The position numbers and the translations under genes were made by a program. A stretch of DNA of 64,000 nt from Acidobacteriota bacterium. GTDB lineage: Bacteria; Acidobacteriota; Terriglobia; Terriglobales; Acidobacteriaceae. Positions within the stretch are counted from its first letter, which is position 1, and each line of letters begins with the position of its first letter. The notes beneath the pieces were generated by a model, which was given only the letters and a program-made list of their open reading frames with translations, searched no databases and was not told the origin of the DNA. Positions 48,923 through 53,026 of this stretch are shown piece by piece. The stretch spans positions 1-64,000 of the forward strand of contig JAJYVF010000003.1 of the NCBI GenBank assembly GCA_021792135.1, given 5' to 3'.

Positions 48923-50686
48923 TCAGCCGGTGACGGCCAGCTCTTCTTCGAGCTGCTGCTTCTGGAAGAGGCTGGCGTAATAGCCATCGCGCTCCAGCAG
49001 CTCCTCGTGGGTGCCCAGCTCGGCGATGCGCCCGCGGACCAGCACTGCGATGCGGTCGGCGTTTCTGACGGTCGAAATGCGGTGGGAAATCAGGATGGTG
49101 GTGCGGCCGGCCATCACCGAGCGCAGCTCGCCGAGGATCCGTTCCTCGGTATAGGTATCGACGCTCGCCAGGGCGTCATCCAGGATCAGGATGCGCGGAT
49201 TGCGCAGGACGGCGCGGGCCAGCGCGGTCCGCTGTTTCTGCCCGCCGGAGAGGGTAAGGCCGCGCTCGCCCACCAGCGTCTCGAAGGCGTGGGGGAAGCG
49301 CTCGAACTCGTGGCGGATGTGCGCTGCCTCCGCCGAGCGCAGGATCTCCGGCATGTCCGCGCCCTCCACGCCGAAGGCGATGTTGTCCCGGATGCTGGTG
49401 CTGAAGAGAAAGGTTTCCTGCGGCACGAGGCCGGCGGCGCGGCGGAGTTCGTCCAGGGGGTAATCCTGCAGGGGTCGTCCGTCGAGCAGCACGGCACCGG
49501 GAGGGGCGTCGTAGAGCCTCGGGATGAGGCTGACCAGCGTCGATTTCCCGGAGCCGGTGGGCCCGACCAGCGCGAGGCTGCTGCCCGCCGGAATCTTCAG
49601 TGAGATGCCGTGCAGCACTTCGACCGGATTTCCGTTCGTTGTGGGATACGCGAAGTGCAGGTTGCGGAATTCGATCTCGCCCCGAATCTCCACACCGCCC
49701 GGAGCGACCGCCGCTGCGCGGTCGTCGATGCTCGGCTCGGCGGTCAGCAGTTCGTGGATGCGCATGACGGAGGCGGTGCCGCGCTCGAAAAGGTTGACCA
49801 CCCAGCCCACGGCGATGATCGGCCAGGTCAGCATCATCATGTAGGTGGTGAAGGCGACGAAATCGCCGAGGCGGATGCGGTGGGTCAGCACCTCATGGCC
49901 GCCGACCAGCAGCGAGATGACCAGGGCCAGACCGAGCATGAATTCGAGCGTGGGCCACAGCATCCCCATCAGCCGGACCAGGCGCAGGGCGCGCCGGATG
50001 TACTCGCGGTTGGAGCGGTCGAAAGCCTCGATCTGCGCCTCTTCCTGAGCGAAGGCCCGCACCAGCCGCGCTCCGGAGAAATTTTCCTGGGCCTGGGCAG
50101 AGATATCGGAGAACATCGCCTGGATGCGCTCGAAGCGTTCATGAATCTTCCGTCCCATGAACTGGATGAGAACGCTCGCGAGCGGCATCGGCGCCAGGGC
50201 GGTCAGGGTCAGGAAGGGACTGATACGCAGCAGGAAATACAAGGCCCCCACGGAGAAAAGGATGGTGTTGGCGCTGTACATCACGGCCGGACCCAGCAGC
50301 ATGCGCACGGCGCTGAGGTCGTTGGTCATGCGGGCCATGATGTCGCCGGTGCGGTGCTCCTGGTAGTACGAAGCCTCCTGCTTTTCCAGCTGGCGGAAGA
50401 GATCGTTGCGCAGATCGAATTCGATATCGCGCGAGATGCCGATGATGATCCAGCGCATGAGGAAGAGCAGCACCCCGTGCGCAGCCGTGACGGCAAGCAG
50501 CAAACCGGCGTAGCCGAAGATCCTGTTCCAGGCAGCGCCGGCCTTCAGGCCGTCGACTGCGACACCGATAACGCGAGGGAACTGGACCCAGATGGCGTTG
50601 GCCGCGATGGTGCACAGGCAGCCCCACAGATAGCCGCGCCAGTAGCGGCGCATGTAAGGGAACAGCGGCTTGAGTTTAGTAAGCAT
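48923..50686 (-). CDS. ABC exporter, fused permease and ATPase (MsbA-like)
   Basis: This 587-residue half-transporter has six spans in the N-terminal part (about 15-320, with TGDIMARMTNDLSAVRMLLG). The ATPase domain has Walker A LVGPTGSGKSTLVSLIPRLY (about 372-391), signature LSGGQKQRTALARAV and Walker B RILILDDALASVDTYTEERI. Such dimers export lipids, peptides or drugs. Its position 21 bases downstream of the LptF-LptG fusion, an LPS-transport component, makes a lipid or LPS-related role plausible but unproven. Confidence 0.92.
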   Translation of the reverse strand: MLTKLKPLFPYMRRYWRGYLWGCLCTIAANAIWVQFPRVIGVAVDGLKAGAAWNRIFGYAGLLLAVTAAHGVLLFLMRWIIIGISRDIEFDLRNDLFRQLEKQEASYYQEHRTGDIMARMTNDLSAVRMLLGPAVMYSANTILFSVGALYFLLRISPFLTLTALAPMPLASVLIQFMGRKIHERFERIQAMFSDISAQAQENFSGARLVRAFAQEEAQIEAFDRSNREYIRRALRLVRLMGMLWPTLEFMLGLALVISLLVGGHEVLTHRIRLGDFVAFTTYMMMLTWPIIAVGWVVNLFERGTASVMRIHELLTAEPSIDDRAAAVAPGGVEIRGEIEFRNLHFAYPTTNGNPVEVLHGISLKIPAGSSLALVGPTGSGKSTLVSLIPRLYDAPPGAVLLDGRPLQDYPLDELRRAAGLVPQETFLFSTSIRDNIAFGVEGADMPEILRSAEAAHIRHEFERFPHAFETLVGERGLTLSGGQKQRTALARAVLRNPRILILDDALASVDTYTEERILGELRSVMAGRTTILISHRISTVRNADRIAVLVRGRIAELGTHEELLERDGYYASLFQKQQLEEELAVTG

Positions 50687-50707: not shown

Positions 50708-53026
50708 CTAAGTGGCTGTACGCAGCAGCAGATACGCTCCGGCCAGCCCAAAGAGAAAATCCGGAGACCACGCTGCCAGAAACGCGGGCAGCCAGCTCAC
50801 ATTGCCCATCGCTTCAAAGAAGCCGGACACAACGAAATAGGCAATGGCCACGCCGATGGCGACAGCAATCCCCGACAACGACCCGCGCCTGCCCATGGAG
50901 ATGGCAAAAGGAATGGCGAGCACACCCATCACCAGCGTAATCAGCGGATAGGCCAGCTTGTGGTTCAGCTGCACCCGCAGCGGCACGGTGTTAAACCCGC
51001 TCTGGCGCAGGTCGTGAATGTAGCGGGCCAGCTCGCCGAAGCTCATTTCCGACGACTGCCGCACTTCCTTCTTGAAATAGGATGGCGGCTCCTGGATCTC
51101 CGGGAAGGCGCTGACGGCGAATTTGCGATAGCTGGAGATTTCATCGCCGCTGAAGGTCCGCTCCCAGCCGTCCTCGAAGACCCAGGTGTTCAGTTTGGGC
51201 TCCCAGTGCGCGGTCGAGGCGAAGATCCTGCGCTCCAGGCTGAAGGAGCCGGGCGTGAACTCGAAGACGGTGATGTTGCCGAAGGTGTCGATCTCCGGAT
51301 CGAAGTATTCGTAGTAGAACATGCGGCTGGACTGGCCGGGCCGCTGCTGGCCGAAGATCCATTTTCGCCCCGGATGTTCGAAGGTCTCGGCCGGCTTGCC
51401 CTTGATCACGTTGCGCAGCGCTTCCTGCCTGCGATTGGCCTGCGGGAGGTACAGATTGTCGAACAGGAAGAGCGCCACCGAGAGCATGGCCGCAATCGCC
51501 AGCACCGGAACCGTGATCCGGTAGAGGCTGATGCCTGTGGCTTTCATCGCCGTCAGTTCGCTCGACCGGGTCATGACGCCAAAGACCACGAGTACCCCGA
51601 TCAGCACGCTGAGGGGCGTGATGAGGTAAATCATGCTCGGCGTCAGGTTGATGAGGTATTCGCCGACGGTGACCAGGGGCGTTTTGTTGCGGATGATGTC
51701 GCCCAGCAGCTCGAAAAACGTGAAGACCAGCATCAGCATGACAAAGGAGACCAGCACCATCGCAAATGTCAGCAGGAACTCGCGCAGGACGTATTCGTCG
51801 AGGATGAGCGGAAACCGCCCGCGCGATACGCGGCGCCGCCCGGGCAGCCGGATCGTTCCCGCGGCTCCCGCGGGCTCTTCGGCCTTCAGCCGGAACCAGT
51901 TTCCCAGGGAACTCAGCGCCGCCAGCGCCGCGCCCCCGGTGGCCATCTGCCGCAGCAGCGCGATGCCGCAGATTGCGAACAGAACGTTGGCCTCCCACAC
52001 ACCGGCGAAAGCCGGGATCTTGTGCTGGCGTGCCAGCGCCGTCCCCGTCGAGGAGAGGAAATAGTAGATGAAAACCAGCGCGATGGTGAGCACGAACCCC
52101 GCGCTCTTGCCGCCCCGTCGCGACGAAATCCCCAGGGGCACGCCGACCAGCATCAGCACCAGGCAGGCCGCCGGATACGCCAGCCTCTTCTGAAATTCGA
52201 TCTCGTAGAGCCTGCCGTTCCTCCCATGCGTGCGTGCCAGCACCTGGCTGTTGCTCATGGCCAGGATCGGCGTATCGCTGTGCCCGAGGCGCACATCCTC
52301 CTGGGAGGCCGTCTGCAGGGGAAGATCGGTCTGGGCAAAGGTGGAGACGGTGTAATCGCTGGGCTGCCCGGGAACCGTCTGGTGTTCGGTGCCGTCGCGC
52401 AGCCGCATGGTGATGGTCTGGTTCGGCCCGTTCACGACGGTGGCGCGATCCGCTGTCGTGATTTTGGGGGCGTTGGGATTGCTTACGTCGGCGAGGAAGA
52501 TACCGCGCCAGTTGGAGGCACCCAGTCCCGCCCGCACGTCCTCGACATAGAGGACGTAATTCCTGAAATCCTCATAGAAGACGCGCGGCTGCACCTCATA
52601 GGAGGCCTGCGCGTTGGCCAGGGAATTTTCCACGCGAAGCATGGCCGCCGTGGCTTTGGGTGCGAAATAGAGGGAGTTGCTCAGGCTGACGAGCCAGGCG
52701 GCCACCGAGACGATCCCCACCACGCGGACGAAGCTCCAGACCCCCACGCCCGAAGCCCGCATCGCCGTGATTTCGCTGTCGGCGGCCAGCCGGCTCAGCC
52801 CCAGCAGGATACCCACCAGCACGGCCATGGGGATCGTGAAGGTGAACATGTCCGGCAGCAGGAAGAGCACGATCTTCAGCACTGAACCCAGGGAGGCGCT
52901 GTTGCGGACCACCAGATCGAGCAATCCGGGCAGATAGCGGATAAAGAGGACAAAAGTAAAGATCGCCCCCCCGATCAGCGCGTGAGACAGAACCTCGTTC
53001 AGGATGTAACGGGTAAGGATCCGCAC
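50708..53026 (-). CDS. fused LptF-LptG permease of the LPS export machinery
   Basis: At 772 residues this is twice the usual LptF or LptG length. Residues about 1-390 form one YjgP/YjgQ unit (MRILTRYILNEVLSHALIGG; spans; periplasmic beta domain; RLAYPAACLVLMLVGVPLGI). Residues about 400-772 form a second (LDEYVLREFLLTFAMVLVSF; MTRSSELTAMKATGISLYRI; HKLAYPLITLVMGVLAIPFA). Each has six spans around a jelly-roll domain. The fused protein would supply both membrane halves that pull lipopolysaccharide out with LptB. The linker around residue 375-400 is rich in Gly/Arg. The ABC exporter gene follows after 21 bases. Confidence 0.9.
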   Translation of the reverse strand: MRILTRYILNEVLSHALIGGAIFTFVLFIRYLPGLLDLVVRNSASLGSVLKIVLFLLPDMFTFTIPMAVLVGILLGLSRLAADSEITAMRASGVGVWSFVRVVGIVSVAAWLVSLSNSLYFAPKATAAMLRVENSLANAQASYEVQPRVFYEDFRNYVLYVEDVRAGLGASNWRGIFLADVSNPNAPKITTADRATVVNGPNQTITMRLRDGTEHQTVPGQPSDYTVSTFAQTDLPLQTASQEDVRLGHSDTPILAMSNSQVLARTHGRNGRLYEIEFQKRLAYPAACLVLMLVGVPLGISSRRGGKSAGFVLTIALVFIYYFLSSTGTALARQHKIPAFAGVWEANVLFAICGIALLRQMATGGAALAALSSLGNWFRLKAEEPAGAAGTIRLPGRRRVSRGRFPLILDEYVLREFLLTFAMVLVSFVMLMLVFTFFELLGDIIRNKTPLVTVGEYLINLTPSMIYLITPLSVLIGVLVVFGVMTRSSELTAMKATGISLYRITVPVLAIAAMLSVALFLFDNLYLPQANRRQEALRNVIKGKPAETFEHPGRKWIFGQQRPGQSSRMFYYEYFDPEIDTFGNITVFEFTPGSFSLERRIFASTAHWEPKLNTWVFEDGWERTFSGDEISSYRKFAVSAFPEIQEPPSYFKKEVRQSSEMSFGELARYIHDLRQSGFNTVPLRVQLNHKLAYPLITLVMGVLAIPFAISMGRRGSLSGIAVAIGVAIAYFVVSGFFEAMGNVSWLPAFLAAWSPDFLFGLAGAYLLLRTAT

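Follow-up and report, generated by a model that had tools for sequence, protein, structure and literature searches.

A probable single-chain LptF-LptG permease encoded in all sampled families of Acidobacteriota

LptF and LptG are normally two membrane proteins that pair to pull lipopolysaccharide (LPS) from the inner membrane. Our analysis concerned a window of 64,000 nucleotides from the genome of a soil-dwelling Acidobacteriota bacterium (GenBank assembly GCA_021792135.1, contig JAJYVF010000003.1, positions 1 to 64,000), in which a sequence-only reading had proposed that two YjgP/YjgQ (LptF/LptG) units share one 772-residue frame. Inspection of the locus confirmed this arrangement. The open reading frame (ORF) from 53026 to 50708 contains 772 uninterrupted codons and zero internal stops, and the Pfam model PF03739 (LptF_LptG) matches it twice, for a summed score of 566.6 bits. 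Both matches are near full length (model positions 1-352 and 2-353) and score 279.2 and 300 bits, respectively, against a cut-off of 27.9. Exactly 21 bases, as previously described, separate the ORF from its downstream neighbor (50686..48923), and that gene, which had been called a fused exporter-like ABC gene, indeed encodes a 587-aa half transporter with ABC_membrane and ABC_tran domains. A promoter and terminator scan gave no score above that of shuffled sequence. The features of the locus are as follows.

50708..53026, minus strand: lptFG, single-chain LptF-LptG permease, 772 aa, GTG start at 53026, stop at 50708-50710
51929..53026, minus strand: LptF half, residues 1-366, assigned by TIGR04407 score, structural match and tree grouping
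51812..51928, minus strand: predicted cytoplasmic linker, residues 367-405, variable and basic, with residues 387-403 at pLDDT <50
50711..51811, minus strand: LptG half, residues 406-772, assigned by TIGR04408 score, structural match and tree clade
52772..52774, minus strand: Glu85, equivalent to E. coli LptF E84 of the coupling helix, E in 45 of 46 proteins
51557..51559, minus strand: Glu490, equivalent to E. coli LptG E88 of the coupling helix, E in 40 of 46 proteins and Q in 6
48923..50686, minus strand: ABC exporter half transporter, 587 aa, ABC_membrane plus ABC_tran, a neighbor of lptFG and not a subunit of LptB2FG

The two halves were distinguished by scoring each one separately. The whole protein obtained 371.0 bits against the LptF model TIGR04407, a figure that adds both halves. 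The N half alone scored 227.8 bits against TIGR04407, which is 2.2 bits under the cut-off of 230, versus 155.1 bits against the LptG model TIGR04408. The C half alone scored 244.7 bits against TIGR04408, above its cut-off of 240, versus 155.7 bits against TIGR04407. The same division was evident in a tree of 62 rows, comprising the halves of 24 fused proteins (taken from 46 aligned) together with 14 separate genes. Here, one split (SH-aLRT of 88) placed the N halves on the side of separate LptF and the C halves on that of separate LptG, and the C halves formed a single clade (SH-aLRT of 99). A fusion of two LptF or two LptG copies can thus be discarded, as the N and C halves score ~73 and ~89 bits higher, respectively, with their own models and fall on their own sides of the tree. 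The order within lptFG is LptF followed by LptG, as in the lptF-lptG operon of E. coli. The N halves required two changes on the tree rather than one, and the outgroups available to it were few and long-branched. The tree is compatible with a single origin, in which the genes of an ordinary lptF-lptG operon would have been fused before the acidobacterial families diverged.

Two circumstances had been named that would undermine the fusion, a frameshift or misread stop between the halves and the presence of separate lptF or lptG genes elsewhere, and neither was encountered. The source genome (5.1 Mb, completeness score of 100%) contains no PF03739 match beyond the two halves of lptFG. Among named relatives, which are mostly titled Acidobacteriaceae or Acidobacteria and reach up to 84% identity (Acidobacterium sp.), all 80 loci match lptFG from residue 1 to at least residue 765, and each of the 80 is a single open frame, with at least 750 codons in 79 of them and 736 in the other. 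No observation pointed to an assembly or sequencing artefact that joined two genes, and such an artefact is next to impossible, as the fusion is found in all 80 of these relatives, isolate assemblies included, and in all 78 sampled families of the phylum. The latter figure is a hand tally over the matches listed in several profile surveys, and among these matches, every family had at least one genome with an ORF of sufficient length for both halves, taken as roughly 730 codons and above, a result that addresses how widely the fusion occurs in Acidobacteriota. Overall, a PF03739 match was present in 295 of 297 Acidobacteriota genomes, with none in the remaining two (G029 and G207). In one survey, both matches fell within a single ORF in 50 of 51 genomes, and the sole exception (G143) has its gene divided over contigs. 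We also read 80 distinct loci from 49 families, which yielded 66 complete ORFs of at least 730 codons, 8 that were truncated where the fetched stretch or the contig stops and still retained at least 650 codons, and 6 shorter ones running off an end. There was no instance of two separate lptF/lptG genes among these 80 loci.

It should be noted that one genome (G136) does carry separate, adjacent lptF and lptG genes (359 and 353 aa, with a 4-base overlap) besides its fused gene. The pair is located on a 16-kb contig (L225, G136:C21), in which a 10-kb stretch has a GC content of 45% versus 58% around the fused gene of the same genome. Because its GC content is so much lower, the pair is probably derived from a contaminant contig. 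There was also a single genome (G015) with two fused lptFG genes on different contigs (L022 and L051), which are 42% identical to each other. Another record, titled Verrucomicrobia bacterium Tous-C9LFEB (L134), contains an lptFG gene of the Acidobacteriaceae type with 59% identity and likely reflects a naming or binning error. Unfused lptF/lptG-type genes were read as controls from nine loci (E. coli, Sphingomonas, Fusobacterium, Deinococcus, Azospirillum, Pseudorhodobacter, Legionella, Bacteroides, and the G136 pair); the loci read outside of Acidobacteriota are only a handful and not a survey of other phyla, and all are unfused. A Bacteroides finegoldii plasmid record (L263:651-2882) has a lone PF03739-type permease directly after tgt, and in PMC11130926, LptG/F-type genes gave no complementation when tested as queuosine-precursor transporters. 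From these surveys, we can conclude that the fusion is present in all 78 sampled families of the phylum and is not an oddity of one genome.

A model of LptFG was produced with AF2 from a 46-row alignment and had a pLDDT of 86.8 and a pTM of 0.82. Only residues 383-385 and 387-403 at the join and a short loop (548-553) fell below a pLDDT of 50. When compared with known structures, residues 2-367 matched the LptF chain 5x5y_F (Z of 26.8, the best LptF structural match), while residues 405-771 matched the LptG chain 6mjp_G (Z of 28.2). The model and the structure comparison place three helices, a periplasmic beta-jellyroll, and another three helices in each unit, for 12 helices in the chain, whereas the packing of the two halves against each other is judged from the pTM and the chain-by-chain matches. 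Thus, the LptF-LptG fusion and the fixed 1:1 ratio of F to G, both of which had been claimed from the sequence, are shown or implied by the sequence, the tree, the structural model and the phylum survey alike. The linker between the halves is variable, ranging from 25 to 104 residues (n = 46 proteins), and its net charge is positive in all 46, as expected for the cytoplasmic loop that we predict it to be. Since the C-terminal end of the last LptF helix and the start of LptG are both cytoplasmic, such a linker can join the halves without a change in topology. The only one of the 46 linkers with predicted helices (L024:1486-3918) has two of them, an even number that would likewise maintain the topology.

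A long, variable linker that is predicted to be disordered would also tolerate a cut. Accordingly, we considered whether the product might be cleaved after insertion, or the G half made separately from an internal start, either of which would restore an ordinary LptF/LptG heterodimer. Between codons 341 and 420, the only in-frame start codons are a GTG at codon 343 and an ATG at codon 361, the latter of which could serve such a start. However, judged by eye, no Shine-Dalgarno-like purine run is present in the 22 bases ahead of either codon, and in all 78 sampled families the frame remains open, which would be unexpected if the join were useless. The check for an internal start that had been suggested along with the fusion thus speaks against a separately made G half, and we regard a heterodimer as very unlikely. 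LptFG would instead remain a single, unprocessed chain.

The coupling residues through which LptF and LptG engage their ATPase are kept in the single chain, with Gln in place of the LptG-side Glu in 6 of 46 proteins. In E. coli, LptF E84 and LptG E88 are both required for LptB to be bound and driven (PMC5082905), and these correspond to Glu85 and Glu490 of LptFG. The LptB groove residues matching these coupling glutamates are F90, R91 and R150, and all three, together with E163, are conserved in each of the eight acidobacterial LptB proteins compared. Counterparts of E. coli LptG K34, K40 and K41 are absent from the LptFG of the window. In E. coli, these lysines are LPS contacts, and because they are not kept, the lipid-facing chemistry of LptFG may differ.

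We also examined the remainder of the Lpt set. LptB is encoded by a separate 242-aa gene on another contig of the source genome and scores 354.6 bits, above its cut-off, while an LptD gene is located at a different place. Directly upstream of lptB, with an overlap of 1 base, is the following gene.

L174:5518-8037 (G000:C8), minus strand: LptC plus LptA-like fusion, 839 aa

The 839-aa protein scored 51.1 bits against the LptC model TIGR04409 (cut-off of 38), with the match covering residues 147-205. It scored 52.2 bits against the LptA equivalog TIGR03002, below the cut-off of 71.7, but 59.8 bits against PF03968 (LptA/LptD-N), above the cut-off of 20.4. As PF03968 was reached and TIGR03002 was not, we refer to its C-terminal part as LptA-like rather than LptA. 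A search of the source genome for LptA using OstA_2 (PF13100) returned nothing. The predicted structure (pLDDT of 82.4, pTM of 0.69) consists of one N-terminal helix, after which the protein is almost exclusively beta-strands; residues 48-215 match LptC (6mit_C, Z of 17.8), residues 594-820 match LptA and the N-domain of LptD (Z of about 12-15.6), and the ~380 residues between the LptC and LptA-like parts are predicted to be mostly beta-sheet. In a set of 80 genomes covering most families, the LptC model matched in 55 and not in the other 25, and every listed match was within an ORF of 607-1349 codons, although LptD or other OstA-type proteins may account for some of the second LptC-model matches. 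Both the LptC and LptA/LptD-N domains were found in all four such proteins scanned from other families, and a family survey of the LptC-LptA-like protein found a match in 60 of 60 genomes. Five of these (G309, G323, G325, G330 and G333) had only shorter ORFs of 199-599 codons, some of which start at contig ends, while those of G330 and G333 appear to be interrupted within one contig. Thus, by domain matches and predicted fold, LptC and an LptA-like part are fused as well, besides LptF and LptG. The source genome has the same gene order as E. coli over this region (lptC-lptA-lptB-rpoN-hpf).

Among the named relatives, 62 loci extend far enough downstream to be assessed, and 51 of these have an ABC exporter within 1.5 kb after lptFG. 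A P-ATPase, presumably copper-type as judged by its sequence, precedes lptFG in 36 of 66. Against MsbA (TIGR02203), the exporter of the window scored 388.1 bits, below the cut-off of 602. It ranked fourth in the source genome (387.7 bits), in which the best ORF scored 514.5 bits and none reached the cut-off of 602, and when compared with MsbA- and SmdA-type exporters, the downstream gene stayed under the curated cut-off in each of the 25 listed comparisons. A role for this gene as the MsbA of the pathway is unsupported, as the genome has a better MsbA match, and the same is true of a role as the ATPase of the extractor, since LptB is encoded elsewhere in the genome.

For nine other families, regions were chosen in which lptFG and the LptC match are separated by ~15-25 kb (L207-L224). 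In order, the cluster comprises accA, recJ, lptC-A, lptB, rpoN, hpf, an hprK-like gene, rapZ, PTS genes, a miaB-type gene, a gene with a BFN domain, parA, parB and, last, lptFG, although individual genomes have gaps or insertions. The identities of rpoN, hpf, hprK, rapZ and the PTS genes are those that we assume from their sequences and from the order in E. coli. A heuristic gene-calling script placed lptC-A and lptB in seven of the nine regions; in the other two (G078 and G127), opposite-strand ORFs were called where these genes were expected, with the LptC match nearby. Most of the nine regions have lptFG closely after parB, such that genes for chromosome partition and LPS export adjoin. The lineage of the window has lost the linkage of lptFG to the lptC-A/lptB cluster.

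These neighborhoods bear upon the idea that LptFG exports another lipid or glycolipid, perhaps with a different ATPase such as that of the adjoining exporter. The recurrent pairing with the exporter would suit this idea, as would the loss of the basic residues of E. coli LptG and the proximity of a Bacteroides PF03739-type gene to tgt. However, the exporter has an ATPase domain of its own, the genome encodes a full Lpt set (LptB and the LptC domain both above their cut-offs, plus LptD), the coupling residues are conserved on both the LptFG and LptB sides, and lptFG is clustered with lptC-A and lptB in seven of the nine regions from other families. Consequently, we consider export of a different lipid very unlikely. 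We are instead confident that LptFG is a natural single-chain form of the membrane half of the LptB2FG LPS extractor and that it works with an unfused LptB. The single chain would supply both membrane halves and sit on an LptB dimer, and the resulting complex would lift LPS from the inner membrane. LPS would then be handed to a single-chain bridge, consisting of the LptC domain, the long beta-sheet and the LptA/LptD-N-like end, and would pass from there to LptD. It also seems likely that the entire phylum employs such a condensed Lpt machine, with LptFG and the LptC-LptA-like chain on an LptB dimer, requiring four genes with LptD rather than six. If so, Acidobacteriota could not regulate LPS export by making and breaking an LptC-LptA contact, and with F permanently joined to G, the extractor would necessarily be asymmetric between its two sides. 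Both the natural single-chain LptFG and the LptC-LptA-like chain should be of use to structural studies and in efforts to tell apart what the F side and the G side each contribute.

Acidobacteriota are common in soil, and they will be overlooked by gene surveys in which length is used to count a single LptF and a single LptG in each genome. A 2022 paper (PMC8871954) describes lptF/lptG as "apparently lacking in Acidobacteria", which is contradicted by the PF03739 matches in the source genome and in 295 of 297 genomes. In the same paper, genes are selected by the length of the hit, the coverage of the profile and the copy number, and presence tables of this sort are used to argue about the ancestral bacterial envelope. 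A double-length protein could fail this type of selection, so the doubled length is a likely reason for the reported absence. No published description of an LptF-LptG fusion was found in a search of the open-licence literature. Protein databases very likely already hold these double-domain sequences.

In comparison with the known LptB2FG(C) complexes of E. coli, Klebsiella, Vibrio and Acinetobacter, each half of LptFG is alike in fold and length. F precedes G, as in the lptF-lptG operon of E. coli, and the glutamates of the coupling helices are kept. LptFG differs from the LptB2FG structures in being one chain rather than two, with an additional cytoplasmic linker of 25-104 residues, and its identity to them is 18-24%. 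It also lacks several of the basic residues of LptG. The 839-aa protein similarly shares an N-terminal helix, an LptC-like part and an LptA/LptD-N-like part with E. coli LptC, LptA and the LptD N-domain, except that it is a single polypeptide with ~380 extra residues between these parts. Like MsbA and the SmdA-type exporters, the gene downstream of lptFG encodes a half transporter that combines a membrane domain with an ATPase domain, but it is under the curated MsbA cut-off and is not the best MsbA match of its genome. Overall, LptFG is LptB2FG in a new arrangement rather than a new kind of system.
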